64,000 nt of DNA from Gracilariopsis chorda (taxonomy: Eukaryota; Rhodophyta; Florideophyceae; Gracilariales; Gracilariaceae). The first letter of the stretch is position 1. The number at the start of each line of letters is the position of its first letter. This document shows, piece by piece, positions 1,603 through 42,514 of the stretch. The notes below the pieces were generated by a model. The model was not told the origin of the DNA and did not search any database. It saw only the letters and a program-made list of their open reading frames with translations. The translations under genes were made by a program, and so were the position numbers. Where the stretch lies: contig NBIV01000209.1 in the NCBI GenBank assembly GCA_003194525.1, positions 1-64,000 of the forward strand, written 5' to 3'.

Positions 1603-1974
1603 ATGATGAAGTTCTTGTTCCCTACGTTCATATTGATTTTGGTCGGATCATTCGTAAACAGCTTGCCGGTGGGTCGCATAGAAACGAAACCGAAAACGGC
1701 AGCTTTGCCCCGTTCTTCCCTTCGGAACCAAAAAAGTACAAGGCTTGTCCCAAACCCCGTCTATCGCGGTATGGAAATATCGTCTTCCAGTGATAAGAAT
1801 CAACCATTTGGGTTGTGTTGTCAAGCTTGTTCACACTGCGTGAAAAAGTTGGTCCGGAAGAATGGAAAACAGCAGAACGCATGGGTATGCAAGCGTTTGA
1901 CACAATTGTGTTGTGAACCCTGCCGTGTTTTCGGTAGTTCCGCTTACCGTGGGGATCACGCGTTTGAACTATGA
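1603..1974 (+). CDS. Small secreted cysteine-rich protein, PFG-CC family member 1
   Basis: This 123-residue protein has no recognised function. It starts with two tandem ATG codons; either gives a typical signal peptide, with a hydrophobic core at residues 4-17 and likely cleavage near residue 20. Residues 21-66 are hydrophilic and basic and do not align with the other members. The conserved module runs from PFG (68-70) through cysteines 72, 73, 76, 79, 96, 103, 104 and 107. The spacing is CC-x2-C-x2-C-x16-C-x6-CC-x2-C, with a lysine/arginine-rich loop at 81-89. The mature chain has eight cysteines, suggesting four disulphides. A 16-residue tail follows the last cysteine. The next member, on the opposite strand, ends 392 bases downstream, so the two are convergent. 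No intron is needed. The secreted location and family membership are well supported; the biological role is unknown. Confidence 0.82.
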   Translation: MMKFLFPTFILILVGSFVNSLPVGRIETKPKTAALPRSSLRNQKSTRLVPNPVYRGMEISSSSDKNQPFGLCCQACSHCVKKLVRKNGKQQNAWVCKRLTQLCCEPCRVFGSSAYRGDHAFEL

Positions 1975-2366
1975 TTGATGTATTTGAGGTGAAAAGCGAA
2001 GGATATGGACAAGTACTCTAAGCGAGTAGTGATCAAGACGGGTGGAGGTGCTCTTTCATCTGTCCCACGCCACCATCTTAGTGGAATTAGGATGGAGTAC
2101 ATGAGAGAAGACGAGCCTGAGATGGAGCAATGCTTTGAACATCTTGTCAAAATCTGCCCAAGGCATTGCAATCTTCTCAGCATTCTGGACAACGAAAAAA
2201 GAATTCATAACATCGTTGAAGCCTCTAACTTCCTTTTATTCCGTTTGTCAGTATTTAGTCCTCATACATGTGCAGAGCTCACTAGATTACATTCGTGTCA
2301 AATACAAGGTGATTTCAATGTTCTTCAAAGTTAACCGCTTCGTAGCGTCAAGGCACCCGTAACCAC

Positions 2367-2759
2367 TTATGTAGCAAACGAGCAAGGGTCGCAACACTGG
2401 GTACCGGCAACTTCCTGGCACTGCGTTTTTTCGACAGTTCTGCCATTCTTTTTCTCAGCGACGGTTTTGCAGCGCCTGCATGCCTTACAGCATTTCCCGA
2501 AGGGGGTAGGATAAGCTGCGTTCCCGTTTCCTTTCCTCTCCTGAATCCGAACTTTTTCCTGCAGATCCTCTTGTCTCCCTTGGTCCCGATCCTCTGCCGT
2601 TTGGCATCCGCAACGTCACTTTCGGGGTTGCGTTTTTCGACTCCGTGATCTGTAACTGCGCTATTGGAGCCGCTCTGAACGCTCGCGATTGTGCCGTCCG
2701 ACAAGTAGAAGCAGCACTGCGACGATAGAGAATAAGATGTTGCCTGTACGAACGCCCAT
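2367..2759 (-). pseudogene. PFG-CC family member 2, apparently broken copy
   Basis: An ATG at 2759 opens a strong signal peptide (hydrophobic core IVAVLLLLVG). In the same frame the C-terminal module appears from 2510 down to a TAA at 2367-2369. It begins PTPFGKCC, then CC-x2-C-x2-C-x16-C-x7-CC-x2-C, and ends in CSFAT. The loop after the fourth cysteine is lysine-rich, as in member 1. The roughly 250-base linker between signal peptide and module is not open in this frame, and part of it reads better in another frame. I see no consensus intron that would explain this, so a decayed copy is the likeliest reading. A small intron or an assembly error remains possible. A TATA box about 100 bases upstream still looks intact, so loss may be recent. 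Confidence 0.6.
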
Positions 2760-2858
2760 TTTGTTGTATACGAGAAGTTAATTGACGGATGAGAAGAATG
2801 GTTAAGGGGCTGGCGGTGTGTGTGGGAAAGAAAGCTACCGGTTGGGCTAGGTCCAGCG

Positions 2859-2866
2859 TTTATATA
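2859..2866 (-). promoter_or_regulatory. TATA box of family member 2
   Basis: The minus strand reads TATATAAA about 100 bases upstream of the ATG at 2759. This is the usual place for a core promoter with a short leader. Confidence 0.55.
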
Positions 2867-3487
2867 CAGCAACGGTAGGAGGAGAATTTGAGTCTCTTCT
2901 TCACTCTCTGTTGCGTCTGTTGCATAAGATTCTTCGATGTGGCTTTGATTGCAATGTAGAGCTATCAGATGGATATGCTAACCGCAGATGTCCCTCTTCC
3001 AGTAGGTACTCAAGAACCAATACTACAAGGGCTCTTCCATACGACTCTAGTTTAACGGACTTGAAGGCACAGTGCGCTGTTGATTATTGATTAGCCAATA
3101 GCTCAATCATGGAGCTCAACTCCGTGTTGAGAGCAACGTGTTAAAGTTTCGCATCCAGCAGTGTCAGTTGACTTGTGGTGCTCTCAATTTCAAAGCATGC
3201 GGAGTAGGGGGCTACCATTGCTTGCGAGAACAGCTTTAAAGCAAAAAGGAATCACATGCACGAGTTGCATGACACGTTCTCTTCACCCTAAACAATTTGA
3301 CGCACTTACTCTCTGGCCGGGACTGGACTAAGTGGTTATGCGAAGAGATAGCCTTCAGCTTTTTTGTTCATTGCTGTACTGTTCTTCACATGTTGACGCA
3401 ATGCTTGGATGCGCTCCGTTGATAAGGAAACTACGGCTGCAAATGTATGACCGCACAATTCTGGGTACGCACAGAAAGCCACCGTGA

Positions 3488-3529
3488 GCTTTCAGCTCCT
3501 TGCTGCTTTCAGCTCACTGCTGCTTTCTG
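3488..3529. repeat. 17-bp tandem repeat
   Basis: Two and a half copies of a 17-base unit, GCTTTCAGCTCCTTGCT, with two changes in the second copy. Confidence 0.7.
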
Positions 3530-6500
3530 TCCGCACCCTAACTTGGCGGAATACCTCCGAGAAAAATAGCCTCTTATGCTTCGTTTTCTGTACAAAACGG
3601 TCAGGTTATGTTGAAATGCATGTCAGTGCTCGTTGTTGTTGAGTGATTCATTGATTCTACCTATGTTTTCGATACTTTGCAGAGAAGCCCTCAATACAGC
3701 TAAAGATTTGACGTTGCTCAGGAGAAGATATTACTTCTCCGTATTTACTGTAACCACCGTTTCTCTCGGAATGGAATTGTTGGCCTTCGCTCGTTGCTTG
3801 TCACGCGATTTTTTCAGTACAGTCAGGCTTGGGTTGCCTTGAATGTCCGAATCATCTATTCGAACCTTTTTCCTTCGTACCTACTCTAGAAAATAGTACG
3901 CTGGAATCGGTTATTGGGTCACAAGAGCTTCGACTCGTCCAAACTTTCGGCCAATTCGACGAATCAAAGGAAACTAGTGCTCCAGGAAATCGTACGGAGC
4001 GGAAACATATCAAGCGATGAGGGATGTGCTTTTTGCGAAAAGTCTAGGGGATGTAGCCTTTCTAGCCCTTTACCCTTCGTACCTTTGCGAGGTAAGGCTA
4101 ACTGCTGCTAACCCTCTTGTCCTTCTCATCTTATTAAGGCCACTTGCCGTTCAGCGTCAGTCGTGACGCTCACTGAAAAGAGCCCGTTCAAACGATTCTG
4201 TAGCATACATTGCTGGCTGCATTGTTATTAGAAACCATTAGCCTTACATAGCCCATGGTATGTAACCTTCAACTTCAAGGAAAGCGCCCACACAGGTCCT
4301 ATCCCCGGATGCTTTTGCTCTCTGCCTTTCCTCCAATAGATTTGCACGTTTTCGACCTGGAGTCTGTCTCAATGGGAACGAAGTGATTGGTACACTATTG
4401 CTGGAAACCTTGGGAAGTACATGTCGAAGCAGTTTTGAATAGAAAGGCGTTTGTAGAAAGCGCTCCTGATGGTATAATGTATAAACCAGCAATAAGGTGC
4501 AGCAAGATACCGCAGCTCAGTTTATTGGTAACGGTACGTTGATGTCCGTCCTCGGCGCGGTATCGATAACGGCTCGATGCTGTTCTAAGAAGAACTGGTG
4601 CACAACACGCCTGAAGTTTGGAAAACAAGTAAACTTCAGGAAGCATAGCCTCGCAGTGAGAGATATGGAAAATTGTTTCTTCTTCGAATGAATGACAAGG
4701 TTTTCCTTGTTCTAAGGTCAACAAGGAGTTTTCTTCACACGGGCCTCGCACTTCCTGTTTGTAAGCTGTCGTCTGCTATCGCATTCCGCTAAAGCTCATT
4801 GTAAACCTAAGTACGAAGTTACTTTCCGAATGGAGCTCGCAGACCCCATTGCAAGCAAAGGAACAGCGTGACGACTTTGATTTACCCAATTGTTAGCCTT
4901 TCTATTGGGCAATTTGTTTACTTTCGTCTAGATAGTTTGATCTTTGACAAAGCACCAGAACATGGGTGGTCGTGATTTGGGTAAGAGTTGGAATGTAAGG
5001 AACCGTCAGCACGGAAGCCGGGAGTTCCTGATAGAGAAATGCACTCCCCCACATTTTGACTTTGCAGTGAAGCTCGGTTTTTGTGGACTGCTTCATTCCA
5101 TATATCTACGCCGAGAGCGTTAACAAACAGTGAGCAGTATTTTCTATCTGTTGAAGGAAGTCACGCGTCCACAGCACACGGTATGTGTCCAATAAAGAAC
5201 GCAACTAAGCAGGAGAAAAGGAGGGCTACGCAACGAAGGGCATTTCCTGGGGAAGCGAGGCGTCTAGCTAGAGCCTCTTTGTTGGCGGTTCTCCCTGTAT
5301 GTGCGCAAATTCTACAAGCCTAGAATTCTATGACCACACTGCTAGGGGAAAGTGATTAAAGAAAGACGCACAAACTGGCATCAACTACCGAAAGTGGTGT
5401 GTGACAACGATAAGCAAGCGAAATTAGCTTGCTTTTGTGGTCGAAAAGGGTGACAAATCCAGAAGTATCACCATAGCGATGAACTGCGAGTTGGAAGGCG
5501 ATTATGACGTCGAAGCAAGTGCATCCTCTCACTTACAGTAACATTTCTGCGTCGAACTCCTTTTCTTTTGGAATGGCGTCCGTACGTCATGCTCAGTGGT
5601 TAGGACAAAACTTGCTCACTCTTCAAGATCAAGTGGGGGTTGTCTCAAACCGTTTCTCTGGAAGCGATGTTAGCATCCCATGCCGCGCTGCCTTTTTGAG
5701 CTGAACGTCTACACCGCACACCTCGTGCTCTACGCATAAATTCGATTCACGATATGAAGGAGTTCACAGTGCAATGGTGTACATGCCGACGGAGTTTAGA
5801 GCGTTACACAGAGGATACTATGCAAGCTGGTTACAGGTAGAGAATACACGACGGGTTTCTTCTGTACCGCCCAGAGTGCTTGTCCGTCCGCTCTGACAAC
5901 ATTCGTACAACAAATATACTCGTGGCCTGCGTATTGCAGTCCTCTTGCAGTGTGCAACGTGCAGGAGAATAAAGTTTCCGATAGCCGGATCGTCGGTTAG
6001 CATCGTCCTTGCTGATATCACGATGATGGGTGTGCTCTTAATTACGGGATGTGCCAACTATAGCATTACATGAAGTAGAAGGCTCGAAAATGAAGGTGCT
6101 GCAGCCAATTCAGGGATTATCCGAGTGAAGCGGCGGGAGGGAGCCGGACGTCTTAATGGAGGCAGCTCAGCGGACGATGAGGAACGCGGGTGTTGGTGAG
6201 AAGTGCGGGTTATGGGGATGATGGTGCTTCTTGCAAAGCGCCCTCACAGCTCGCGCTTTTTGCGGCTTCCATACTTGGGGGCGGGGAACTCTGGTTCCTG
6301 ATTGGTCGTCACTAAACGCCGCGTGTGTGCGCTGTACAAGCTGAACTGTGCACTACTGCACTCGCTGCGCGAGGGAGAACTCGGGGGGGCTATGATTGGC
6401 TTCCATGTGTGTGGATTCAGCAACACTCACCTCTGAAAACGATATGCGTGTACACGTGTCCTGAGCTGTACGAGCGTTCGCCCGAGTGGCAGCAGAACGC

Positions 6501-6743
6501 GAATGCACCGCAATAAGGTTACCAACGGGACCGTTCGTACTCCGTACCCTTGTATATCTACTGTAACTCGGGCGCCCAGTTGTCTCTTTTCTCTTCCCCA
6601 AATTGCAATCTCTGTTTCCGCGGTAGAAGGCTACCAAGGTTGAGGGGTTAGCGGTAGCGGCTAACCCTTACCACTGGATATGGCTGTATCTTTCCCAGGC
6701 ATGAGTTCCAAGAGTCTGCGCCTCCTGCAACGAGAAATGAAGA

Positions 6744-6750
6744 TATAAAA
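6744..6750 (+). promoter_or_regulatory. Orphan TATA box
   Basis: TATAAAA in a setting like the family promoters, followed by ATG codons at 6772 and 6777 that open only very short frames. A spliced or decayed gene downstream is possible but I could not identify one. Confidence 0.3.
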
Positions 6751-8938
6751 ACCGCGCCGAACATGTGGCATGGCTACCACTCACCGCTCTCAATCGCTTG
6801 TTGAGACAAAGTGTGTGGAGACGGTTATTTCGCGTCATGGATAATCTGCATCCAGGAGGCGCGGCGCTACTGCTGCCTTTCTTCAGAGTGGGACAGGGCG
6901 TCTTTCAAGACGTGGAGTAATTGTGTTGCGCCACGTTCGCCGCCACCTTCCCCAGCGCAATCCCCTTGCTGCTTCAAATTCAAACTCAGCTTTGCAAGTG
7001 TGCCTCATGGACACTCCCCAACGGACAAGAACAAGATATCACAGAAGAGGAGAAGGGTTAGAACGCTTTCATTTACCAGAGGCATACCCATTCAGTTGTA
7101 TCTGATCCTCTCCCTGTTGGCTCCACGAAATCATACCAGCATTGTAGATTACAAAACGTAGTGTGTCTGCGCAATCCCTTGGGAGGTGCTGTTTCCTTTT
7201 TCTTCAGTGTGCCGTTGGGTTCGGAGAACATAAAAGAGCTCCTGTGACATTGCCAGCTTCTTCCCGGTCATCAACAATATCATATCATAGCGCGTTCAAC
7301 GAGCTTTTTATTGTCTCTTCTTGTCATATCAGGCTTGTTAGTGCAGTATTGGAAGTCAGAACCGCACTCTTTGAGAACGAGACTTGTGTTCTTGTTGCCA
7401 AGCTTGTAGAAAGTTATTTTTCTGCAAAGGAACCAATTCTGGTTTTGGTTCGAGAGCCGCGAATAACAAATAGGAATGAATTCCTTTGCCTACGTCATTT
7501 GTTAATTCGATATCCCGCAGACATTGCTACTTATTGTACGCAGCGATCGGTTTGTACAGGTATTGCTTCTTCGTGTTTGCTGCAGCACACTCGTTTGTAC
7601 CCTTGGACACTGAACGGCAGGAAACGTTCCTCGATGCTGCACATGAGAAACCACTCGCTTGGTTGGGATTAGAGACACAAGCTCGTACAAACACACAAAC
7701 ACACACTCGCTTGGGTGAAGATTCGACACGTGCATGGCCACGCTGCGCAATTCGAAGAAGAGTCCGAATCTTCTTGTTAGCTCCGCAACAAATCTTCAAA
7801 AGTGTGCAGCGTCGCAAACTGCTTTCATTCGATATTTGAGATTGACGAGCAGACAAACCACTTCCTTCTCATTGTGCCTACCGTACTCCACAGTTGCAGA
7901 GCTGAATGCTGCTTTGCATTTGAAGCAGAGGGGGCGCTAATTTCGGTGAACATGTCTTCGAAGAGAAGCGTTCAGGGGCAGAGGAACAGTGAATGTTTCA
8001 AGACACCAATTACAGGTAGAGAGCCCGCGAGCCATGTCTCAGTCTTCTTCAAGACATCTAGAAACTGTATGCAGATAGTGTGGGCGATGAGCGTAGATTT
8101 CAGCATCATCATTTCACAAGAGGTCGAGAAAGTGCAGTAAATTCCGTGGAACACCTTCGAGAAATGGAGGCAACGCAAGAAAAAATGCACTTAGGCGGAC
8201 GACATTCTTATAGCGTGGAGCATATAATCGACGCTGTACTTTTCCAGAACATGTGTGCGGCCCATGCATGTAAAGCCATACGCATCCATCATTGACTTCA
8301 CCGGCTACTTCGGAGTGGTACTAACGAAATTGTTGGCATCAGGTCCGATTACTCCTCACCACAATTGCATTGTCTGTGTTGAAACGCTGCGCATTCATCA
8401 CTGAATCGATATTTAGAGGAAACACTAGAAATGGGTGGATCACATTACTGCTTATATTAGACGGGATGACGTCAAACCTTAATTAATCCATGCAGAGGCA
8501 GCTGTGAATGTACAGTTACAGGTGCTATACCCAAACGTCGGGTCATCATCGTTGCCACGCGGCGACAAACTACACGCAATAGTAACAACTAACGAGATGA
8601 CAGGAGCCGTTTCTGGTGAGAAGAACACCATATGAAACTTTTGTCCATATCGGAGAGATTTTTGCTCTTCAAGAAGTGTGTGCTACTTGCATCGGCAAAC
8701 TTCGAACCCTGTACTCCTCACTTGAAACAATGAGGTGCAACCAACATGATACTTATGCACCACTGGCGAAATGCGTCCTTCCCAAATATTTTTGGTGTAC
8801 GACAGGCAGCAGCTGAGAACAAACCGTCTGCTGTTGATCTGAACGTGGCTTGTTGCTTGCAGGCAGTGCTATGGAGAATCTTTGAAATGTACAGAAGTCC
8901 ATCCCTCAGTTCTCATCTCAGCCCATGTATCCCAATTC

Positions 8939-8948
8939 TGTACATAAA
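8939..8948 (+). promoter_or_regulatory. Weak TATA-like element of family member 3
   Basis: TGTACATAAA lies about 60 bases upstream of the ATG at 9008. The intervening leader is pyrimidine-rich and free of ATG codons. Confidence 0.4.
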
Positions 8949-9007
8949 GAGAGCACTCAGTTACCATTTACGTTCACGCTCTTCACCTCTCACTACAACT
9001 CATCATC

Positions 9008-9490
9008 ATGGTCTCAATCTCTGGACTTCTAGCATTGAGCTTAACGCTTGTCTTGTTCGTTGCACGCGCGCAATCGCGTGCTGTAGGAATCGCTGAGCAT
9101 TCACTGAAGCTGAAGAAGGACATAGACGGTTTACGTGAAGAACGTTCAATCCGGCAGGGATCTTCGGATTCCCTTTTGAATCGCCGTGGTGGCAATGGAG
9201 GTAACGGAGGTAATGGAGGCAATGGAGGAAATGGTCGAAATGGCGGCAACGGTGGCAATGGTAAAGACGGCGCCGACGGCAGAAATGGCAGTGACGGTTC
9301 TGACGGCAAAGACGGAGTGGAATATGAAAAGGGTGGGAAAGAAGAGGAATATGAACCCTTCGGCCAATGCTGTGAACCATGTCAGAGATGCAGAAGCAGG
9401 GGGCGAGGACGTGCACCGTTGTGTCAACCGGATCCCAGCACACAATGCTGCCAAGCGTGCTCTCTTCTCCCTGGTCGACGCAGGGGCTGA
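9008..9490 (+). CDS. Secreted PFG-CC protein with collagen-like repeat, family member 3
   Basis: A 160-residue protein. The signal peptide has its core at residues 5-19, with likely cleavage near 22. A charged stretch (23-60) precedes 14 Gly-X-Y triplets at 61-102: first GGN/GRN, then GKD, GAD, GRN, GSD. There is no proline, and X-Y pairs are small or polar. An acidic spacer (104-116) leads to the conserved module, EPFGQ then cysteines 121, 122, 125, 128, 139, 147, 148 and 151. The spacing is CC-x2-C-x2-C-x10-C-x7-CC-x2-C, with a short arginine/glycine loop, and the chain ends in an RRRG tail. The triplet repeat could trimerise like bacterial collagen-like stalks, with the cysteine module as a head; this is inference. 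The repeat may equally be a flexible glycine/asparagine linker. A TATA-like element lies upstream, and no intron is needed. Confidence 0.83.
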   Translation: MVSISGLLALSLTLVLFVARAQSRAVGIAEHSLKLKKDIDGLREERSIRQGSSDSLLNRRGGNGGNGGNGGNGGNGRNGGNGGNGKDGADGRNGSDGSDGKDGVEYEKGGKEEEYEPFGQCCEPCQRCRSRGRGRAPLCQPDPSTQCCQACSLLPGRRRG

Positions 9491-10339
9491 GGGTGAGTGA
9501 CCTGCACACAAACATCAACTCTAACGTAACTGTTATGATTCCCAATATGACTTTGGCCCACACGTACCTTTTAACTGGCCTCTTAAGACCCATCAGAAAA
9601 CAAATCCGAGTGCGTAAACCTTGTGCAAAGTGTCCAATGAAAGACCGCTTCAACACACGTAGCTTTAAACTGACCACGGAACCAATGGTGCCAGGTTCAG
9701 CATCACGGCGCTTTTTCTGTGTCTTTGATTCACCATTCATTGATCATCTTCGTGGTACTCTCTACACTATCTTTTAGTTTTGGAAGGAGACATAGAGCAA
9801 TTACAAGCTTCTAAGGCTCTGCTACACCGTAAGAAAAACAGCTTACGCGTTCAGTGTGTTCCACAAGAACATCGCTACTCCTGTTGAATAAAGTGGGTAA
9901 TCGAAAGCACATGAGAGCGAAAAAGAAGATAGTGTCAAATCTAGTGTCTATTCGGCCGACAATCTGACCTCATATTATGACTATAATATGACTCCTCTCT
10001 TAAACTACTAAACCGTACCGCAAAAAGACTGCCAAAAAGTCGAGAGTTCTAACAAATATGTTAAGCCGTAGAGCTTCAAGATATAAACAATTGCTGAAAT
10101 ATGTAGATATAAAACCTGATCTCATATGAGGCCAAATAATCTCATATGTGTTACAATCTACTTCAATTATGCCAAATAGCAAAACTTAGCCATCTCACGA
10201 TACCAATATTTCCATCCTCTCTTTAAAGAATTGAGAGACAATCTAAAGCGTGGTTAGATGAATTTAACCTACATGACGACTACGAGAGAAAACTGCTGGC
10301 CGTAATGAAGAGATTCCTCAAAATATGCAAAGAGAAGGG
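9491..10339. other. Downstream flank without recognised gene
   Basis: Sequence between family member 3 and the first Copia fossil. It becomes AT-rich after about 9900. One open frame runs on to 9777 but starts inside the preceding gene and has no recognisable domain. Confidence 0.5.
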
Positions 10340-13300
10340 ACTGTTGTCGCATGGGCTTCTGACATAAGTGAGAAGTTCATGTATGCGCAGTGTAGGGGGC
10401 CTTTCTCACAAACAACGGTATTTGGCACAGGAATCTGCCGGGAGTCCGCCTTGGTCGCCTGGAGGATGACGCTTTATTTATATAGGGATACTACGCAACC
10501 CTTGGGATACTAAAGTCTTTCAGCGGCGGGCGTTTCATGTTGATGCTGTACGTCATTCCCTCTTTGTCAGCATCGGACTTGTACGTTTTTTCACACACCC
10601 CCCTGTCGCGTTAGCTTTCTATATACAGTTTCCGTCTAATCCCAAGTTGCAGAGTGATGTGTCATGCCCTTGGAGATTTCGACTGTAAAGTGACCATCTG
10701 CGAACAATTCATTGATTGTTCTGAAATGGTCTGCGCTTGGCTTGGTCAAAGCATCTGCGATGTTGATAGATCCCGGTATCCAAGTCACTGTATCAAGTTT
10801 TTCAGATTCGAAGGCATCACTAATCATTTTGAATGTCTTGCGAGGTCAAAATTCTATACATTCGTGACGTGTAGTGATGGTATCGAATAACGCTTTTGAA
10901 TCGACAAGAATACGATGAAGAATGTCTAGATGCCGGAAAATGTTTGGCAGCGTCGTCTTCATGTCGAAACCCCGATCTTCTGCTTCAAATCAAGCCAATA
11001 TCTCGGCCATGAAAGATGAATTTGTGACCCGGGGTTATTTGGTGCTCGTATAATAGAGAGGATAAAAAAAAGGTTTTTCGTCGAACGTGGTATGGAATTC
11101 TTATCCCAGCTCTCACGCCCGTTTGTCCGTATTCCTTTGAGTTGCTTCCGTGAGAAGCGTCAGAAAAGCTTATCAGTGCAGCAGAGGTTACCGGAAGAGG
11201 GGATATGTATCTGATCTTCGGCTGTAAATGACATATTTCCGATAACATAGCATTGGCGTCTACTAAGTGCTTGACCATAAGATATCTTAGGTCTTGCTGC
11301 ATTCTTGACGTTATGTATGATGCTTGCGATAATACCGCGGAGCCAAGATACATAAGTGTACCGGCAACGGAGCGGTACTGTTTAGTCTCATCTGTAATGG
11401 TTCGGTTTTCTCTTTCTCGACGCCGAGGGCGCGAAAGTTTGATCGTTTGTAGCCTATATATGTACGAAGTGATCGAAAGTGTGACGGAGCCTTCTTCGTC
11501 TTGTTCAATCTCACATACAGCGAAAGCAAGTCTACGTCCAATGCGAATCTTCCCAATCTCAAATTCCTCCTGTAGGGATTGCATGAACATGTTCATTCTA
11601 TCCTTTTTTCCAGATACTAGAACGTCATCCACTATCTTGGCAATAACTAACGTGATATGATGGGACTCTTCTCGCTTAACGAAGAGCTGATTGACCCCAA
11701 AAATACGCTTCAGACCTGCTTTCTCGAGTATCCAAGTTTCCACTATTTCAGCCCATGGTCTAACTTCTTCTACGATTCCGCAGGGTATTTTAGTGAGCCT
11801 CCATAGAGTACCTTTCTTCTTTCGGAATTCAGGGGCTGGTCTGAAAAATATCTCCCGTAGGATAGGACCGCTCTGGAGAAAGGCATCCTTGACAACTGCC
11901 ACTCCAAAGTAAAATCCGAGGCATAAAGCTATGCTGATGAGGATTCGGATGATAATCATATCTGCGTTGAACAATCCTTGCGGCTTTCATCTTTCATACC
12001 ATCTCTGTTACCGTGAATTACGAGTCTGGCTTTCAGTTTCCGAACCTGCTCTTCATCTTCTTTCACTTTATACACCGTTTGAGAAGAGATGACATTGGCT
12101 TTGGGAGAAACGGAATTTTCTGGCACCTCTTCGTACGCGTGTATCCAATTTTCATTGTGCTCTTTGTCGATGGCTTTCTTGAGTATCCATTGCAAGGCAA
12201 ATGTTAATTCCCCAGCGCAGACTTGACGGGAACCAATTACTCCTTGAACGCATTTCAGTATTGCCTGTTCGTTAGAGTCCAGTTCTTGCAAATCGAAGAG
12301 CTCTCGGTGCTGCATAAGGCCTTCTGTGTATTCTCCCATGTCTTTGTATACGTTCTCTTGACGTTTCGTGTAACTGGTCATCAAAGAGCCCATAGCCTCA
12401 TTCTTCATTTGTGCATCATTGATTGATTCGGGGCTGAGGGTGAGGTATATTTAGTCCTCCATTAAGCCTTCACTTAGCTCACGAGCTAGTACGGAGTTTG
12501 GCCTAAGTCGCAAGTCCCCGTAAGCAATTTTCGAGATATGTCGTCCTCCCTTTCGTTTTACTTCGACGTAGTGATCTAGTGCGCGTAAAACGACACCTTC
12601 TTTCCATTCGTCGGACTCGTTCTGCTTTGAGTATCTGTAGAAGAAGAGAACCTGGTCCCCGGGTTTTATAGACCCGGGCTTCAAAGACGAATAATTGTGA
12701 GCCTTCCAAAGTCTCTGTCATGTGCGCGTCGCTGTCTGTTATTTTTACTCGTCCATTAGCTCCTGTGTGGCCATTCGTCGTGGTGCTCCGAGAAGCGAAG
12801 GGGCATATCCTTTGGCGAGTTCAAATGAACTCATGAGTTTCAACCTAGTGAAGCAATTTGAGAGAAACACTGCTCTAGACAGTATTGTACTGTCACTGCC
12901 TAGCGTTTGTTCTTGTTGCAGTTTCTCCAGTATCCTTTTAACTATTCCGTTCTTTCGCTCCACGATACCAGTCATTTTATGGCATCGCACTGGGCGCAGC
13001 TTGGATTTGATGTCCCTTCCTGACAGGAATCTTCTCATATCCTGTTTATTAAACTCATCGCCGGCAGATAGGGCTTCCAGTGCCTCGTGTACGTTCTACC
13101 ATTCGACTTCTAGCACTGCGATACAGGTTTACATTTCTTGATCTCTCGTGATATTGGCTTCGGAATACCCCGTTCCGGTATCGACTATATGTAGTACCGT
13201 GTATTTAGTGCCTCGGATGACGCAGAACGTGTACTCCAATTGGATCTCAACGTTAAATGCCTGGTTGACGTGGTTTATCAATATTTTCTTCGAGGGGACG

Positions 13301-15117: not shown

Positions 15118-15654
15118 GACTTTGGTCATTAGTAACTGTTCAGTTTGACCTGAGGTATCCGGATTTGGATTGTGAGGTCGTTAGACCGTGTGATACTCCT
15201 CGCAGAGGGTCACTGCATTCGGTTCGCTCAATTCAACCGCTCGGTAAGCATACAGATACTCTGTGTTATAATTGTCGTGTGACATTTATCTACCGTTTGG
15301 TACTGGTAGCGCCCCTGTACTGGGTAATTTGTCCACTACATCCCGTGCATGTTCACCCTCCGTCGGTTCTGTTTCTGCTTTCTGCACGACCCGAGTGGTT
15401 TTTCTCCGTCCTCGGAAGGCACCCTTCACCGGGTATATTCTAAACCGCCCCATTGCGTCGCACACCATTCTTTGGTTTTACCGACTTTCTGGCTCCGGTT
15501 CACCTTTCTTTATCCATCTCTGTGGTCAATCCAAAATACCTAGGGTGTAACGTTCGTATTACATGTATACAGAGGGCTCTGTCACTGGGCCTGCCTCCAC
15601 ATGGAGCAAGGCCCCGGACACCTTGTATGTGATACCCAACCTTCGGGTTTTGCA
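15118..15654. mobile_element. LTR-like segment related to 62560-63000
   Basis: Several blocks align by eye with the 62.5-63.0 kb region, for example CAGAGGG(C/T)C followed by an AGCAAGGCC block, in the same order. It sits between Copia fossils A and B and joins the gag of B directly. It is best read as a separate LTR-like piece inserted in or left beside the nest. No coding domain is visible. Confidence 0.4.
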
Positions 15655-22479: not shown

Positions 22480-25400
22480 CATCAACCACCGCACGTGCCA
22501 TCTTGGACACAGGGGTCGGTGCAAACCTGGTACCTGTCGACATGATCTTAAGGTCGGCTCTGAACTCCTTAAAGACGCACAAACTACCAACGGTGAGCGA
22601 TGCCTCCAGCAGAACGTTAAGAATCCTCGAGGCTCTGCCTTTCTATCTCCATGTTGGATCCTTAAAGGTTAGAATTTGGTTCCTAGTGGTGACAAATGTG
22701 GCCGCACGCTGCATACTGGGGACTTATTTTTGGGGACAGGTATGTGAGTGCCATCTACCCATACCTGCAGAAGGTGAAATTTCATAATGCCACCCCTGTA
22801 GGTATCGTGTCCACATCTCCAGTAACCGATTCAAATGCGCGTTAAGTGGGCAGACGTCCAAAGAAGACGCAGTCGAACAAACTCCGCGTAATGAAAAGTG
22901 TTCAGATACCCGCGAGGAGTCAGGCCGAGTTCTGGGTGCAATAATCCACCTCAGGCTTGTCCTTCTTGCTAGGGAACCCTCACCTTACTACGAGGCAACA
23001 CTCCATGATGGCTAATGGTGTAATGGAAATGGTCCCGACCATCCCCTTCAGGGTTGTCTTTGCCAACCTTAAGGAGTCTTCTTTAACGCTCTACAAGGGG
23101 ACCGTAGTGAAGATTGCTCTGTCCGCTCCTACAGAACTGGCTTAGATCCCGTCAAATGAACACCTCGCCGTACAGGACACTGTCACCGCAATGGAGATTG
23201 ATTCTTCACCGTCGCCTCGTAAGGGGACACCCCCTGCCTCATGGCAAGAGAAGCTCCAAATTGGCAAAGAAATCGCAAAGTATCGCCAAAGGATAATAGA
23301 AATGTTATCCGCCTTAGAGGATATATGGTCCGGCCTTTGGTCCAAGTGAACTTGACCAAGCACCGGATCCAGTCAACACATGAGTCGAAACCGGTACATC
23401 AACTCCCAAGGAGAGCCGGAACCCATGCACGCGATTTTGAGCGTGAGAAGATCCAACACATATTGGACAAGGGCGTGATTGAGCCGTCCACCTCCGAATG
23501 GGCCTTTCCAACGGTGTTCTTCAAGCAGAAAGATGGATCTCTGAGGTTTTGTATCGATTAAAGGCGCCTAGATGAGGAAAATGTGTGGTATTCGTACCCA
23601 ATATCCCGCATGGATGAATATATCGACTGGTTAGGCGATGCGTCGGTATTCTCTACTCCAGACGCCAACATTGGATATCGGCAAATCGAGAGGGAGGACG
23701 GCGATAAAAACAAGGCAACGTTCACCACCCACTGTGGCATATTTAGATTTTTAGGGATGCCTTCCGGACTGACTAACGCCCCCGCCACATTCCAGTGGGC
23801 ATTTGGCATAATCCTGTCAAAGGTGAAGTGGCAGTATGCCCTGGCATACATTGATGACCTCAATATCTACTCTTGCGCCGTGGAGGGTCCCTTAACGAAT
23901 GTGAAACATGTCCTCCAACTCCTGAAGGATGCTGGCGAACCCTGAAGCTGGAGCAGTGCTACTTCTTCAAGTCCTCTGTGAATTAACTGGGACACGTAGT
24001 GCTCTCCAGTCGCCTACGGATATCAAAGAAGACTCAAGAGGCCATAAAGAAATCCAAACCACCCACGGACCAAACGGAACTAAGTTCTTTCCTAGGTTTG
24101 TTCAACGTCTTCCGCCGGTTTGTCCCTAATTTCTCCCGAACGCGGCCCCATTGAACCACCTTTTAGAAAAAGATTAACCGAAGCAGTTTGCAACCTTTAC
24201 AAACGAGGAGTATGGAGCGTTCGAAATACTGAAAAGGATGCAGATTGAACCTCCGATATCTGTTCTACCGAAACTGCCCGGACGGATGGTCTTGGATACG
24301 GATGCCTGTAACTACCAGGTGGGATGCGCTCTTCTACACGAACAACCAGAAAAAGGACTGCAGCCAATAGGATACTGGAGTCGTACCCTCTCCCAGGCGG
24401 AGCGGAACTACTCCAGCTCCGAACGGGAATATCTCGCTATCGTGTGGGCAGTACTACTGCTGCGCCCCTACTTGGAAGGGACTTTCTTCACCTTGAGGAC
24501 GGATCAAGCTCCAGTGAAGTGGATATTGTCCTTTAATGACGCCTCCGGACGCCTAGACCGTTGGAGGGTGTGCCTGCTGGAGTATGAGTTTGATATCGCC
24601 CACAGCCCAGGCGTGAAACAACAGGCAGCAGGCGCTTTGTACGGTATATCCACCGATGGAGAAGATAGAACCCTCGTGGAGGACACATTTCCCTGCCTCA
24701 CCCTATGTGGCACGGAGAATGGAAGCGATCCTGCAGGAGATCCCGTGGAATGTAATACCCCCAACGGAAAATATGCCGGCATTTCTGAGGTGATGGCCCT
24801 AGTTGAGGAGGAGAAGGAAGTACTCCCCATAACCATGGAGGAAGTTCTGAAGGAGCAGAGTTCTGACCATGTCTGTAAGGAGAGCATCGCCACTGTTGGA
24901 CACACCACATCCCTCTTCGATATAAACGGGGATGGGGTATTGGTGCGCCGCGCACCCCTTAACAGCGCACTCCAAAGGATGGTTCCAGCCAGCCTGTGGG
25001 CTAGGATTCTGTACCTTTCGCACTACCTGCGCTTCGCAGGACACCCGGGCGGTTCCCGTATATATTTTTCCATGAGGAGAGAGTTCTGCTGGCCACACAT
25101 GGCCAACGGTGCTTTCCAAACTAGCACTCCCTTAACTTTGTTTCCTTCTTCAGGTCCTTTGGAGTTTGTGGCCTTGGATATATTGGGCCCTCTAAATTCG
25201 GAGCGGGGATACCGTTATATGCTGGTTATCACCGACCGGTTTTCGAAGCTCACCCATGCCATTCATCTGAGAAGCAGCACGGCTGGAGTTATTGCAGATG
25301 CCTTTCTGGAGAATCGGTTGTACCTGTACGGAATACCCTTGTACGTCCTCACGGATAATGGTCCCCAATTCGCGGCGAAACTCTTCGGCGCCTTCTCAGG

Positions 25401-26385
25401 AATGCTTGAGATAATAAAGCTGTTTACCACCGCCTATCATCCCCAGACGAATGACCAAGTGGAGAGGTTCAATACGACCATCCCCTCGAGGTGAAGAATC
25501 TATACCGCAGACCATAAGAAAGACTGGGACGTGTACGTGGGCCCGCTCATGCCTACAACCTACAGGAGCACTGCTCCACATGGACTTCACCGTTCAATCT
25601 ATTTCTGTCATGGATTCCGCCAAGTGCTGTGATTTCCACGCGCGCCACGGCGCACGCTTCAGACGTTCTTCTGGCGCCCAGGGCAGTTTAATCAAAAAGG
25701 CACCCGTCAGGTGGTATGAGAACGCACTTGCGCTTTCAAATGCTAGGCTGATCGCCTTTGAAAGGAGATAGAAACAGGATTTCGACTTGAAGGTGAAACA
25801 AAGCCCAAAACTGAGAAAAGGGGATGAAATAATGCTCGAAAACCCCCCGGCGACTTCAAAAGAACCACCAGAAGTCACCTGAAAATTGGCGTCAAACACC
25901 TTAGGGCCCAACCAAGTCCTGTCCACATATAAGGATACGATCGCCATCGACATAAGCGGGCTCCGTAACATCGTCTCACGAGACCGGGTGACAAAAATCC
26001 CAGAGCTTCTCCCACGGAAGTGACCTCAGTGGCCACCCACCACTCCTCCTCCACCGCAGACGACACCAGCGACAAGACCGGGCATGGCCCGTTCACCTAA
26101 GGTAGTATCGGCGGACACCCATAGCTCGTGTATTAATGGCGATGCCCCTGCTTTACGCAACACTCCTCGAGATAACCCGGACGTACTCTCGACACCCCAG
26201 GGTAGGACCTTATATGCGGTGGACCACATCAAGTCGCACCGTCAAACCCCTTCAGGATTCAAGTACCGCGTCAGATGGTACGGCTACGCCTCAGTAGGTG
26301 ATACGGAAGGACTTCCGGAACACATTACAAAGAACTTTATCAGAGGATACCACGCTAAGCTGGAGCGAAACTGCAACTCCTCGTA
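22480..26385 (+). pseudogene. pol region of the Gypsy fossil
   Basis: Aspartic protease near 22485 (AILDTGVGANLV). Reverse transcriptase about 23400-23950 with the active-site motif AYIDDLNIYS. RNase H about 24240-24650 (LDTDAC, then TDQAPVKW). Integrase core about 25160-25490 (ALDILGPL, TDNGPQF, HPQTNDQVERF). A C-terminal chromodomain lies at 26205-26380 (YRVRWYGY). Order and spacing match the family. The longest uninterrupted frame, 24238-25494, spans RNase H and integrase. The region as a whole is broken. Confidence 0.85.
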
Positions 26386-32657: not shown

Positions 32658-33213
32658 AGCGTTTGTCGTGAACCTTTTTGCATCACTCACCAGGGGCGTC
32701 GGGGTGCGGCACGGCAAAAGCTGTTGCCGTTGGCGGAAGTGGCGAGAAGGATTTGGTCCTTAAAATGAGATAGAATATCACATGGATGTCACCCTCTCCA
32801 TGCCTTTTCTACCTAGGGCAACAAAGGGGGGGGAAGATTTGACAATTAATAAGGTAGTACCAACGCATAAGAATTTTATCATATGCAGCCCCCAAGTTGT
32901 ACAGTCTGTGAAACCAGAATAAAGCCACCCCCCTCTTCCACCGTTTTTCTTGAAAGACTCTTCCCTTTCTGTAGCACGGTAGTTCAAATGGATGAAATTA
33001 ACAAACGTAACCTATCTGTCAAGTCAGATTACGTTCCAACCCTGCTGGATGCCTCCATTTAACCAATAACAATCCATACTTGCATAATTCAATTAAATTC
33101 CACATACCTTAAGTCCATCTCATTGAAAAGTGCGCGCACTACAAAGTAATTTAAAACCCACAACAGGTTAAACTGTATCTCCCTCAGTTTCCCCAAGTCC
33201 AAAAAAGGTGAAG

Positions 33214-34190
33214 ATGGGACACAGTAAGCCCTTGTTGGACAAAGAAAATGGGATGATTCTTGCAGCTTCATCTCAATGTTGCTCGCAGAGAAAAATAGGT
33301 CAGAATTTGAACCGCTCTTGCACTGTTGTGTAGAACGTTTTAAGGAATCCCAACACTTACAATACTCAGTTTAAAGGGTCAAACAACAACCAAACTGACC
33401 CGTACTGCAAACATAGCGTTATTTCGTGTCGCTTCAAACGAAACTTCATCGGCAAGAGAGCTTCGTAACGCTCTTTCACTACCAGTATCTGTCAGAAGTG
33501 GTCAACAGATTTTGAAGAATGATCCAAATTAAATTTATAAGAAGATGAAGAAGTTACCAATGTTGACAGGCTGCCATAAAAAAGAACGAGTACTTTGGGC
33601 TCGTCATACAATGAAAGTTTCTATGGAACAGTGGAAGAAAACTATTTTCTACGATGAGAAAAGGTTTACTCCTGTTGGTCCTGATGGGTTTGCATACTAT
33701 TGCCATTATCTTGGTAATAAAGAATTGGTCTTTTAGAAGAAGCATAGTGGTAGATATTCGGTCATGTTATGATGTGCATGTTCTTTTTATGGTTTGAATA
33801 AGTTAGTAGTTTGCAAAAGTAATATGGAACTTACAATGTACTGCAAATTACTAGAGAAAAACATACTTTCATTTGCGGCTGAAACATTGGAAGAAGTTTT
33901 TACTTTTCCACAAGATGAGGCTTCTCTACATTGGTCTGTTTATACTATGAAGTGGTTAAAAGACGGCAATGTTGATGTTTTTCTCTGACCAGCTAAGTCT
34001 GCCGACCTAAACATTACGGAAAACATCTGGTTACTGTTTCCATGTTGATACTACGCTAATCAGCGCCAGTATAAGGATGTTAGAACGCTTGTGGTAGTTG
34101 TTCTGGACTGTTGGAACGAGTTGATTAATGAGTAATTGGAAACTCTGTACAAGTTTTTACAGGAGTGTTGCATAAAATTGGTGGAAAAGA
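33214..34190 (+). pseudogene. Tc1/mariner-like transposase remnant
   Basis: The ATG at 33214 opens MGHSKPLLDKENGMILA and then CSQRKIGQNLNRSCTVV, the paired helix-turn-helix start of Tc1-like transposases. The catalytic region follows in pieces: FYDEKRFTPVGPDGFAYY (33650-33700), FPQDEASLH (33906-33932) and ADLNITENIW (33997-34026). The spacing between second Asp and Glu fits DD34E. Stops occur after CTVV (33331), after ELVF (33734) and after DVFL (33986), with at least one frame change. Terminal inverted repeats were not found with certainty; TACAGTCTGTGAAACC at 32900 is a possible left end without a matching right end. Confidence 0.75.
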
Positions 34191-37100: not shown

Positions 37101-39138
37101 TGCAGCGGAATGAAGGTGATTGTTGCTTCATTTTACAAGAGACAACTGTGCCTTGTCAAGCTTTGTCGAAGCGAAATAGAAACGCAAGGTTATTGGATGG
37201 GACTGTTGTACATTTGTGCAAACAACAATGCAGTTGAAGTGTCACACTTGCTTGCTGCTCCAAATGTTCTGCGAAGACTTGTAGATTTAATAATGCTCGC
37301 CATTTGTGCAAAAGAACATGATGAGATACAGTTCCAGTAGTACTGGTTCCTTTAGAGTGAACTTGTCCCTATACCCGTTCCATGCATGTTGGGAAAGATA
37401 CCCTGGGGCGAAGGGGTTGCCAACATTACGGAGAACGGATAAATTACAGCTAATCACTTATGACGTTTGTATGCAATGTACACTCGGTGATTAGCACGTG
37501 AGACGCTGAAGTTTTTATGTTTGTTGTTGTTTAATATGGGCCCTCAATGCAACAGAAATCTTCTAGTGTTGCAAATGGTCGTCGGAATGGAACTCAAATC
37601 GGTTAAGTAATTCGGATTGTGTCAGTGAGATATCCAAAGGGGCGCGAAACTGTAGATTGAATGCTGTATTTAAGAGCTCTTGTTTGGGCAGAAGATGCCT
37701 AGTAAGGAGGCCATCGACCCAGTCAGTCTACACACGCATCCCTTGTTGAACACAATACCTAATTGCTGCATTGTGGGTAGAAGTATCGTCTATAAATACT
37801 TTTTCCGCAGGAAACTAAGGAACTTGTTTGGGTGTTTATGTGTCAGAGCTGACAGAGGCTTTGCAAGAACTGAGTCTGTCCATACTTCACAGCTACTGTT
37901 GGCCTTTAAACGATAGGTCTCTCCGGGATCATCATGTGATGGAGAGGTTACTGGTAAGCAGTTCTCACACATTCTCTGCTTCCAGAGAGCTATTTGTACT
38001 TTGCAGATGTTCCTACTCCCAAAGGACGGCATAAGGGTTGTCAACCAGCCATTCTCTTTTCTCGCTTACATGGTCCACCTTAAACGCTCTCCAACAAAGC
38101 CTGCAGGCACTGATGCATGCCACGAAAGTCAAGACAGCTTTATAGCAGTGCCTGTAAGCTGTGTTTAAAGCTTCATTGCCATTTCATCAAAACTGCGCAG
38201 TATCAATGCGCATGCCCAAGTCCGTCAGCGGGGTGTAAGTGTTCTTCCAGGAATACAAGGGTACGAGTCTTCTGTGGTTTGTTTAGTTTAACAGCCGCCG
38301 TGCTGCAGACAATGTTGCTCAACGACTCTCATTGGCCAATGGAAACGTCAATGCCGATTGAATTTTCAGTATACGGTTTCTAGTTCGATATCTATTTTCC
38401 AGCGTAGGGAAAAGAAAAAAAAAATCAGCGGGTCGACATGGATACGGAAAATAGCAATAACGCCGGCAGGGATGCGAAGAGTGCAGAATTTGCTTCAATT
38501 TAGGCTTTCTTTGTCGATATAGCTTTCTGGTACGCTTGCTCTTAACTCGTTTCCAGAAATGATGTAACCTTTAATACGTGCATTAGGCCATTGTCCATGC
38601 GTGTAGCTTCAAGCCACAACGCGCAGCTTTGGTGCGCTTCGTCTTCAAAGAAACCCACATGGTCAACAACCACAAAATCCCTACCCGTTGATCTCCTTTC
38701 TCGGAATTGCTAGAAGAAGGTATCAAATAGATTCCAGAGACGTATGCGCTAAGAACAGGTTCAGTCAGAAAGTTCAAAGCTGATGCACGCCTTGACGGCG
38801 GCTATTGACATTACCCGAGCCTACGAACTAGCTCTTGATCATGCAACTAAGTACGAGACTTGAAAACATTTTCACGACTGGGGAGGGAAAACCATATATC
38901 CATTCATTTGGTACCAAGCCTAGATTATCATAAAGGGGGGTTTGCTAAACGGTTGTTTCTTGAACCGGCGATCTAAAACAGGCATTGCCTCCATGTACCA
39001 CCGCTTCTAGAACGGTTAACAATAGAAAAAGTCGTATGAAGCCCCAGCTGGGCATCGCAATAATCAAATGCGTCTTAGTCCCAAAATCATGTAGGATTAG
39101 TGAAACTGATTGCAAATCCTGGCACAAAACGCCTATTC
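34191..39138. other. Long stretch without a recognised gene
   Basis: About 5 kb with only short open frames and no domain, repeat or promoter I can defend. It separates the Tc1-like remnant from family member 4. Confidence 0.45.
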
Positions 39139-39513
39139 TCAAGCAACTGCAAGCAAAGGGCAAGGTTTGCAACAACTGGTATTCGGGGTCGGCTTGCAAA
39201 CTTTGACCGTATAGTATGTCCACCTCCAGAAACGCCCGCGTCTCCGTCTTCGGCGACGCTCCGTGTGGCAGCGCTCGCACGGTTTGCAGCATTGTCCAAA
39301 TGAAGGGCCGAACGCAACCTGGTGTCCCCCGGGTCCCTTGAAATTTATCCTCGTCAATGCATTGGGCTCTATGAGCATGTCTGAATGGTCTGATTTTGGT
39401 TCTAATCCCTGCATGTCGGGAACCGAGAGCGGCGCTGAAACTGGAGATGTGGCCCGTGACTGCGCAAGGCTAGCGAGCAGTAGCACAATAGCAAAAAAGG
39501 TTCTCTTGTTCAT
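39139..39513 (-). CDS. Small secreted cysteine-rich protein, PFG-CC family member 4
   Basis: A 124-residue protein with the ATG at 39513. The signal peptide core is residues 6-16, with likely cleavage near 18-21. The middle part (22-70) is unlike the other members. The conserved module begins PSFGQ, so it carries one extra residue in the PFG motif. Cysteines are 75, 76, 79, 82, 106, 114, 115 and 118, spaced CC-x2-C-x2-C-x23-C-x7-CC-x2-C. The loop after the fourth cysteine is the longest in the family, with nine arginines within 86-97, and could bind acidic polymers or membranes; that is inference. The tail is short and hydrophobic (PLLAVA). A TATA-like element lies about 131 bases upstream. 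It shares orientation with member 5, about 2.6 kb away. Confidence 0.82.
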   Translation of the reverse strand: MNKRTFFAIVLLLASLAQSRATSPVSAPLSVPDMQGLEPKSDHSDMLIEPNALTRINFKGPGGHQVAFGPSFGQCCKPCERCHTERRRRRRRGRFWRWTYYTVKVCKPTPNTSCCKPCPLLAVA

Positions 39514-39643
39514 GCTGAAGACACAAAGCTTGTCAAAGGGTAGGTTGTTGAGCTTCTCCGTAGTGATTGCGAGGATTGACGTTATGGCTGTGGGGAGCGC
39601 ATTTACAAGACGCTAAGCTCACCGACAAGGCGACCACAACCCG

Positions 39644-39652
39644 TCTTAAATA
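39644..39652 (-). promoter_or_regulatory. TATA-like element of family member 4
   Basis: The minus strand reads TATTTAAGA about 131 bases before the ATG at 39513. Confidence 0.4.
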
Positions 39653-42124
39653 CCAGAGCGCTGGTGCGTGCTCGGAATGTGCCTCGGTGGCATTCTATCC
39701 CTTCACGTCCTGACTCGCGTGTGTAGACGTGGCCCGACGCTACCCTTGTACAGTAATACAGTAATGTATCGAAAATTCACCAACTCTACCAGCATCCCAA
39801 TCACTCGCCAGCATCACATGACGAAGGTAAGAACAAAAATTAAATATCTTAAATGTTTCTTTACAGCAAGCGTCCATCCCATCTCAGGGTAGAAAGCTAC
39901 TCTTCGTATCTCTCGAGTTATGGTGTGTACATTTCTCCATTGCTTGTGTGCAACCTCTCGAACGAACGCGAGTCGAAAAAGAGCTAGCTTCTTCTCTTGC
40001 AAGTAGGATGCCCTTTCCTGTCTCTAAACCCTGAACGCATGGTGTCCACAAGGCCGACGTGGCTCAAATATCATCGACTGTCAGGTCAATTAACAATTAA
40101 AGGGTTTTTGGTCCAACCGTGTGAATTTTTGCTATTCCGACAACGTGCTCGGGATAAATTTCTTTTGAATTAGCGATATAGATTTTGACAGCAAAATATC
40201 GTACATCATGCCTGATGAAGCTTCAATAACCACTTGTTTCGCCATACCCCTTCTCCTTACGCAAATTGTTTCATGCGTACTCGCATATGGCCACGCGGTC
40301 ATGCCCAAGCATAATTTGAAGAAAAGAAGAAACGACACAAGTATCGAGCAGTCATCACAAGACCCTCCTCCATTGTGATTGGGCCGTAGCTGCTCTTGTG
40401 CCTTTCATGTGAAGGATATCCTTCCCGTAGTTCTGTACTAAAGAGGACTGGTCAACGGGCAGTTACTGCCAACGTGACGATCCATGTATTGCTGGACATC
40501 TCTGAGGTGCCTACTCCGCAGTTGCCACACCCTCATGGTTGAGTGCGTTTCCCCCGCTTCGGCTCATCTACGAATAGGGCATGGAGAAGTAAAGTACAGC
40601 GACGAGTCCGCACAGAGCAAACCATTGTCGAATGGGGAATATGTGGAACAACGAGAAGCAGAAACGCTTGCCTATCCCTGAAACGCTGCTTATTCGCATG
40701 CATTGTAGAGAGCAACAATTACATGTATGTGATAGTTTGGTTCTTTTTCATGATTACACTGTTTGTGCCCAGTTATGCCTCTTACCCCAGTTCATTGTTA
40801 CGGTAAGGGTTTTAGGAATAGCCTTCCTGTGAACACCATAACCTCAAGCCTTCATAATGTTGTCAAACATAAGTTGTTATTCGGTTTTATTGCACAGGAG
40901 GGGTTTTGTTAGACTGGTTCGCGATTCCAAACAATGTCAAATACGTCATTTGCAGGACGCCGCAGATCTATCGTAAATTGTTGGAAACCGCTGTCGTTTA
41001 CATGTCGTTTGGAACACTGGACATTGCCTTTTTAACAGGAATTAGGTTGTGGATGCGCTGGATAAAAGCACGGCTTTCCACTCCTTGGGCGAACAAGAGC
41101 GCATCTCGCTGGATTTCTTCAAAGTACGGCGGAGGTTTAAAGTCTGTCCGGATCGCCAGTTATTGAATAGGTTCTGGAAACGTTGGAGGAAGACCTTACG
41201 TAGAGAACTGCGAAAATCCCCTTGTGCATGTTTACGTTGATCACGCCACAGTGCTACACCAGTATCGACATGCTTGCGCGAAAAGAGAAGTTTTTACCCG
41301 TTAGAGATCTTAGTAGAGTTGAGAACGCACTTGATCGCTATGTCATGAGGTGCACAAGGCGTTTGCAGACCAGGCAGGAGATTTCAAAAGAACATCAGAT
41401 ACTTGGGGCTACAGAGATAATTAGAAATGGCCGCTACCGTTTACCGACGGTAGCGGACCCCCAAAAACCAACAACAAAGCATAAGTGTGAACGCCTTCAC
41501 CCCTGAGCAGAACGAACGAGCTTTCAGCGTACAGCGAGCACTGTAAATGGTGAGCTTACAATCCAATAGAACCTTGTTGCCCACCCCCAGAGCACGCAGG
41601 CGTGGAACAACGATTATCCAAATTCCTTCGTGTTTCAGCTCAATTGGTGTAACGACGCGTGAGCAAGTCCTCGGAGGACCTCGGATCGAGAAAACACTAA
41701 CACGCAGCGCATCGGGTTCTTTGCGTTTAACAACGGGTTTCGAACGTTCAGTTCATCTTGAGAATCAGGTTCTTGACTTCAACGCGTACATGATTGCTTG
41801 TTTGACTTGTTGTATTGTACTGAGTGTGGATACCTAATTCTCTGTTCCTTTAAGAGTAGAAAAAACGGCGGATTGTAGCAAACGCACCGCATGCCGAGAA
41901 AGGAAACGTATTTTGGCTCGGTCTCTGCTACCTATCACCGAGAGTTAGACACGACAACCGTCTGACAAAAATGGACGAGTTTTCTTCAGAGAGATGATAT
42001 CTTTACCTTCGTCGAGGCGTGAGGCCGTTAGTGCCGAGATCTGCAGGTCAAAAAAGAACAGCCAAGTGTGTGTGTATGTGTATGTGCCGAGTACGACTTG
42101 AAAACATGTATAGAACGCGAAACA
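39653..42124. other. Spacer between family members 4 and 5
   Basis: No recognised gene. Short frames at 40543-40806 and 41547-41837 lack domains. Nothing here resembles the PFG-CC module on either strand. Confidence 0.45.
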
Positions 42125-42514
42125 CTAGAGAAAAGAGCAAGGTGAACAGCATTGGGTTTTTGTTTGTGGGTCACAAACGACCCTTGTGCGCCATTTGCAT
42201 GGACGCACACTGCAATCGCGGAAGTGACGGCGCTTGCAACGCGGCGGACAAGGTTGGCAGCACTCTCCGAATGGCGTGCCAAATTCCAGTTGAGCTGGAT
42301 CTGCAAGGATGGATAACTCCGTTCCGTCTCCCGTCATTCGTCCACTCCATTTCAAAGATCGATCTCCATGAGACAGCTTTGCGACTTCAGCATTCCGTTC
42401 GATATCATTTGCGGGTCGCTTCGAGCGAGAATTTGCGCTTGGCAAAGCTCGTCCTTGCGTATAGGTCGTCATTCCCACCAGCAGTATCCATGCTATAACG
42501 CACAGCGTATTCAT
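42125..42514 (-). CDS. Secreted PFG-CC protein with ten-cysteine module, family member 5
   Basis: A 129-residue protein. The ATG at 42514 is preferred because it is followed at once by a signal peptide (core residues 4-14). The open frame runs upstream to 42628, but the added 38 residues are not signal-like. The pro-region (22-78) is charged. The module starts GTPFGE, then cysteines 85, 86, 89, 93, 101, 106, 114, 122, 123 and 126. Compared with the others it has three rather than two residues between the third and fourth cysteines. It also has two additional cysteines (101, 106) in the basic loop, which would allow a fifth disulphide. The end, CSPCSFL, resembles that of member 2 (CDPCSFAT), suggesting those two are closest. 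An extra cysteine at residue 5 lies in the signal peptide. No clear TATA box was found. Confidence 0.83.
   Translation of the reverse strand: MNTLCVIAWILLVGMTTYTQGRALPSANSRSKRPANDIERNAEVAKLSHGDRSLKWSGRMTGDGTELSILADPAQLEFGTPFGECCQPCPPRCKRRHFRDCSVRPCKWRTRVVCDPQTKTQCCSPCSFL

Follow-up and report, generated by a model that had tools for sequence, protein, structure and literature searches.

Five genes with a shared cysteine module

The window analysed here, 64 kb from the start of contig C209 in the assembly of the red alga Gracilariopsis chorda (91.3 Mb, 1081 contigs), harbours five small genes, M1 to M5, which end in the same cysteine-rich module, hereafter the head. Phycobilisome-linker domains occur in open frames of seven different contigs, so that they do not all belong to a single plastid genome, and of 14 control genomes only Synechococcus has this family. 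Taken with the genome size and the Copia and Gypsy elements, they probably indicate a mesophilic red alga, a group for which the title of PMC6811547 names an expansion of phycobilisome-linker gene families. M1 (1603..1974, +) encodes a protein of 123 residues, and its module, PFGLCC...CCEPC, lies at 1804-1923 (+) with a 16-residue loop and a central NG. M2 (2367..2759, -; ends counted by hand from the translations) is frame-broken; its module (2382-2507, -) is intact and again has a 16-residue loop with a central NG. M3 (9008..9490, +; 160 residues) has a glycine-rich linker and a module at 9356-9460 (+), in which the loop is 10 residues long with a central RG. M4 (39139..39513, -; 124 residues) carries a module at 39160-39303 (-) with a 23-residue, arginine-rich loop of net charge +9, its glycine off centre. 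The module of M5 (42125..42514, -; 129 residues) lies at 42137-42274 (-) and contains 10 cysteines, the loop reading C-x7-C-x4-C-x7-C. The use of both strands, with M1 and M3 on one and M2, M4 and M5 on the other, and the two extra cysteines of M5 are as described in the initial annotation of this DNA.

That annotation had claimed five loci with a common cysteine module, and this holds. A six-frame scan for the loose pattern CCx2C-x(2-4)-C-x(8-40)-C-x(4-9)-CCx2C returned exactly five stop-free matches in the window, at 1816-1923 (+), 2382-2492 (-), 9368-9460 (+), 39160-39291 (-) and 42137-42262 (-), and the module appeared 0 times in 100 dinucleotide-based shuffles of the window. F-G-x precedes all five matches, though the pattern did not require it; F-G-x-CCxxC occurred three times in total over the 100 shuffled windows, versus five times in the single real one. 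Alignment of the five modules gives 10 invariant columns, namely F, G and the eight cysteines.

Signal peptides were scored by a home-made hydropathy rule only. By this rule, four of the five members have a complete frame with a signal-peptide-like start, M2 being the exception. Of the signal peptides first described for all five loci, a signal-peptide-like start is found in the four complete frames; in the window the signal peptide and the module of M2 lie in different frames, and no continuous frame joins them. Intact copies of M2 are present at L036:2578-2967 (contig C170) and L047:1731-2120 (contig C457).

Relatives across the genome and their surroundings

Genome-wide, F-G-x-CCxxC was found at 60 sites (34+26), compared with 13 (7+6) for the reversed pattern. 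Among the 58 sites inspected, 24 belong to family genes, and 34 do not, being repeats, gene-less frames or, in two cases, ambiguous. The 24 include five second copies (M1, M2 and M3 on C170; M1 and M2 on C457), so that the distinct family genes number 19. Nine of these carry the full head (M1 to M5, C170a, C78, C189a and C113), seven finish or nearly finish in a half head, FGxCCxxC (C2, two on C11, C90, two on C95, and C270), and three have two CCxxC with no cysteines between them (C9, C54 and C109). Hence the paralogues that had been expected elsewhere in the genome are there, as four more full modules and ten larger relatives. Full heads on different contigs are joined by tblastn, with C78 matching C189a at an expectation value (E) of 8e-9, M1 at 2e-7 and C113 at 2e-6. 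A decayed tandem copy adjoins C189a.

The eight small full-module members, with M2 taken from C170, score 2.47-3.37 in the hydrophobic region of the putative signal peptide, and a score of at least 2.4 is reached by 11 of 145 background open reading frames of the window, a set that includes the family's own. A TATA-like box, 67 to 237 bases ahead of the start codon, is present in the 250-base upstream stretch of six of the nine full-head genes; about 0.17 would be expected per such stretch in the window, and the box pattern was chosen after these upstream sequences were viewed.

Judged by its sequences the family is real and paralogous, and it is apparently undescribed. No published family had been recognised initially, which agrees with the lack of a match in Pfam, NCBIfam, PHROGs or the PDB. 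In Pfam, none of 23 proteins or pieces of members and relatives scored above the cut-off, and in NCBIfam none of ten proteins did, the best by E-value being the glycine-rich linker of M3 (19.9 bits against a cut-off of 325). Searching PDB sequences, the five-module profile gave a single match at chance level, to the RING-bearing factor MAT1 (E 0.91), and a nine-sequence profile gave none. M5 had no relative among the viral and prokaryotic contigs searched. The single match in a protein-database search was identical to the C189a protein. A literature search at title level, chiefly of open-access papers, returned no paper on such a cysteine-module family and none on a gene-encoded cationic peptide family of red algae.

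All ten larger relatives end in PFGxCCxxC, and three of them have a second CCxxC. The seven half-head proteins contain seven cysteines each after signal cleavage, the cleavage points being rough estimates, in the order C-x(4,5)-C-x9-C, gap, C, gap, and CCxxC near the end. C113 reads C-x17-C-x9-C followed by a full head, and in this way joins the N-terminal cysteine region of the larger relatives to the full module. Two further proteins with signal-peptide-like starts, L065 and L066 (contigs C9 and C392), resemble this N-terminal region (E 3e-34 and 3e-25) but have other C-termini. A third, L068 (contig C3), also with another C-terminus, is alike in cysteine pattern only, its E of 0.67 not being significant. 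The three are perhaps part of a second, broader family. Relatives of the double-half protein of C54, on C271 and at C54:334564-335145, contain an in-frame stop (TAA), and could possibly be pseudogenes or contain introns. The mixture of forms among members and relatives suggests gain, doubling and loss of the C-terminal unit.

The start of the window (1-9791) is repeated on C170 (L036) and C457 (L047) with 99.2-99.7% identity, and the differences are mainly gaps. It aligns with C170:86895-96699 with 5 mismatches and 15 gap openings over 9.8 kb, and with C457 with 5 mismatches and 17 gap openings over 4.5 kb. C170 and C457 differ from each other by only 4 mismatches and 3 gap openings over 4.7 kb. 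As the window departs from both mostly by gaps, and they depart little from each other, the frame break in M2 is probably an assembly error near the end of C209. C170 and C457 are redundant with the start of C209 in the assembly, and there are probably indel errors near this end of C209. C170a lies approximately 13.5 kb before M1 on C170. C170 also aligns with the start of the window, and if C170 and C209 represent one region, about 55 kb of it would seem to contain six of the nine full-head genes.

Mobile elements lie between the members, as first reported. Copia-type reverse transcriptase fragments (RVT_2; 10988..12450, -) and Gypsy-type polymerase fragments (RVT_1, RNase H and integrase; 23562..25491, +) separate M3 from M4. 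Further along the window there is a transposase, DDE_Tnp_1_7 (48929-50077, +), which we take to be piggyBac-like; it is split over two frames, with the second part below the family cut-off. A second Copia-type element (58550-61430, -) consists of reverse transcriptase and zinc-knuckle/gag-like fragments. Elsewhere in the genome, a dispersed repeat is present in many near-identical copies (on contigs C1, C3, C4 and numerous others); one of its frames gives CCPACGYC, and we take it as unrelated to the module. On contig C39, six near-identical sites (L015-L020) about 5 kb apart are perhaps a tandem array of units of about 5 kb.

Anatomy of the head

The head is C-terminal and 38-61 residues long. 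It begins with [PS]FGx and CCx[PA]C-x(2-4)-C; next come an 8-23-residue loop, C, 6-9 residues and CCx[PA]C. A proline or alanine stands before the last cysteine of both halves in all nine full modules (the second half of C189a reads CCPKAC), which bears out the internal symmetry seen at the outset. Between the fourth cysteine and the next, the loop has 8, 10, 16 (five members), 20 or 23 residues, and the two cysteines that flank it, being separated by 8-23 residues, are a candidate disulphide pair.

In seven of the nine loops, those of lengths 8, 10 and 16, a glycine sits exactly at position n/2+1, behind N, D, K or R. Such a residue followed by glycine at the loop centre is the layout of a two-residue hairpin turn. 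When the glycines of each loop are placed at random, the chance of the centred glycines is 4.8e-8 for those seven loops alone. It becomes 0.025 if only the two members with a length other than 16 are counted, a restriction made because the five loops of length 16 may share their glycine by descent. The loop of M5 has no glycine, and its two extra cysteines are mirror-placed (chance about 0.05), in positions where a bond across a hairpin tip might be expected. The net charge of the loop is +2 to +9 in eight of the nine members, M4 having +9 and the other seven +2 to +8. AlphaFold2, given nine sequences, predicted strands at residues 10-19 and 22-31, in 10-residue blocks with a mean predicted local distance difference test (pLDDT) of 90 and 91; the remainder of this model and the four other models scored lower.

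The analysis supports an invariant cysteine head joined to an unalignable, variable middle. The initial picture of a stable head with variable partners needs widening: the long gap inside the head is variable too, mostly cationic and hairpin-like. A 9-base tandem repeat at 9187-9262 overlaps the glycine-rich linker of M3, and tandem repeats may be one way in which the linkers diverge.

Possible functions and known systems

We tentatively put forward, as an explanation that is quite possible, that these genes form a lineage-specific secreted family whose tail, locked by disulphides, turned into a cationic hairpin that binds anionic targets, either for defence or within the sulphated wall. The small proteins would be exported via the signal-peptide-like start, which is followed by the fast-changing linker and the C-terminal head. 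Within the head, the two CCxxC halves would make up a disulphide-locked base, and on it the loop would form an antiparallel beta-hairpin. Outside the cell, the positive hairpin could bind anionic polymers or membranes, either of microbial surfaces or of the alga's own sulphated galactans. In defence against surface microbes, it would act like cationic beta-hairpin peptides. In the accessible text of the 2026 review PMC13001179, the natural beta-hairpin antimicrobial peptides are all from animals or plants, with two plant members, both from flowering plants. It describes the class by a beta-hairpin structure, a length of 11-25 residues, at least one disulphide-forming cysteine pair with partners at least three residues apart, and experimental evidence on structure or activity. 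The head itself probably arose from the PFGxCCxxC tail of larger secreted proteins. Given the charge, the hairpin and the variability, we lean slightly towards defence over a role in the sulphated galactan wall that is structural only. If the alga is free-living, the host-interaction role that had also been considered is unlikely, which leaves defence or a part in the cell wall.

Several observations weigh against this explanation. M4, with its loop of 23 residues and off-centre glycine, departs from the hairpin layout, and the loop of C189a has a net charge of 0. The structure prediction advised for the module did yield a hairpin over the loop, but the model is weak overall (pLDDT 73.7 for the best of five and 58.8-71.0 for the others; predicted template modelling score 0.37), and a structure search with it gave no match. 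Checked by eye, the sequences show no cleavage site, dibasic or other, that is conserved ahead of the head or PFG, and thus give no indication that a free peptide is released. The whole head, at 38-61 residues, exceeds the length of the beta-hairpin class; only the loop counted from cysteine to cysteine (10-25) compares with it, and this bears no sign of excision. In the larger relatives, the residue before the last cysteine of a half is not limited to P or A (for example CCNGC and CCKHC), and all ten have the PFGxCCxxC tail without a cationic hairpin. Some tblastn links are weak (M4 with M5, E 0.02; M4 with M3, E 0.2). Finally, as 34 of the 58 inspected sites are not family genes, the genome-wide excess of FGxCCxxC stems partly from repeats.

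Those 34 sites, together with a genome rich in TG-type repeats and in the repeat reading CCPACGYC, could suggest that the modules are chance open frames or broken repeats with no gene behind them. The signal-peptide-like starts, the TATA-like boxes upstream, the spacings conserved across unalignable sequence and the tblastn similarity between contigs make this very improbable. An alternative that we consider possible, if on the unlikely side, is that the proteins build the wall: the head would cross-link chains via its cysteines and the cationic hairpin would grip the alga's own sulphated galactans, shaping the extracellular matrix without killing microbes. It would suit the seven half-head relatives, since their exactly seven cysteines (after the estimated cleavage) are an odd number, from which one is left over to bond with another chain. 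The glycine-rich linker of M3, with a sub-threshold collagen match, points the same way, and matrix proteins often have variable, repetitive linkers. The window members, however, retain 8 or 10 cysteines once the estimated signal is cleaved off (C189a, elsewhere, has 9), numbers that can all pair within one chain, and library scans of members and relatives found no known wall domain.

Two other roles appear less probable. Secreted metal-binding proteins, in which CCxxC...CxxC ligands hold zinc, copper or iron, come to mind because two CxxC-like pairs resemble zinc-ligand spacing, and because the only PDB match of the five-module profile was to the RING-bearing MAT1, albeit at chance level. We hold this to be improbable: the signal-peptide-like starts suggest passage through the oxidising secretory route, in which cysteines as a rule form pairs, the heads have no conserved histidine or aspartate, and the nine-sequence profile lost the match. 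It is also hardly to be expected that these are ligands for reproduction or self-recognition, with tips that change rapidly and a part in the fusion of gametes or cells. A constant head with a variable loop and linker would fit, as would several genes in one region and the decayed copy beside C189a, but the stretches of C170 and the window that bear M1 to M3 are 99.7% identical.

If the cationic-hairpin explanation is true, a secreted, paralogous family of this kind would offer concrete, testable molecules for red-algal immunity or wall biology. The half, double-half and full heads also suggest how a disulphide module can grow. A bolder version, which we find doubtful, credits red algae with a disulphide-locked cationic beta-hairpin head of their own, evolved separately from those in animals and flowering plants by building a hairpin between a pair of CCxxC units, the same unit being elsewhere in the genome the plain tail of larger secreted proteins. 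The family would then be a gene-encoded defence peptide system of a red alga.

Defensins, knottins and snakins also combine a signal peptide with a short, cysteine-rich C-terminal domain. The present family differs from them in its cysteine order, CC-C-C-C-CC-C, in the PFG that leads into the head and in the likeness of its two CCx[PA]C halves. In the precursors of arenicin and alvinellacin, the hairpin is C-terminal. These precursors are of the BRICHOS type and, in the accessible text of PMC13001179, release the hairpin peptide from a longer proprotein; unlike them, the 23 proteins or pieces scanned here have no BRICHOS or other Pfam domain above the cut-off. Tachyplesin, polyphemusin, protegrin, arenicin and capitellacin, covered in the same text (PMC13001179), have a short cationic hairpin clamped by cysteine pairs, as the hairpin predicted here would be. 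In M5, C-x7-C-x4-C-x7-C would be the mirror layout expected of a beta-hairpin peptide with two bonds. Unlike in the beta-hairpin peptide class, arginine is not twice as frequent as lysine (30 R and 24 K over the nine loops). Unlike in known beta-hairpin peptides, the putative hairpin is only one part of a larger head, which also comprises the two CCxxC halves and the PFG in front of them.

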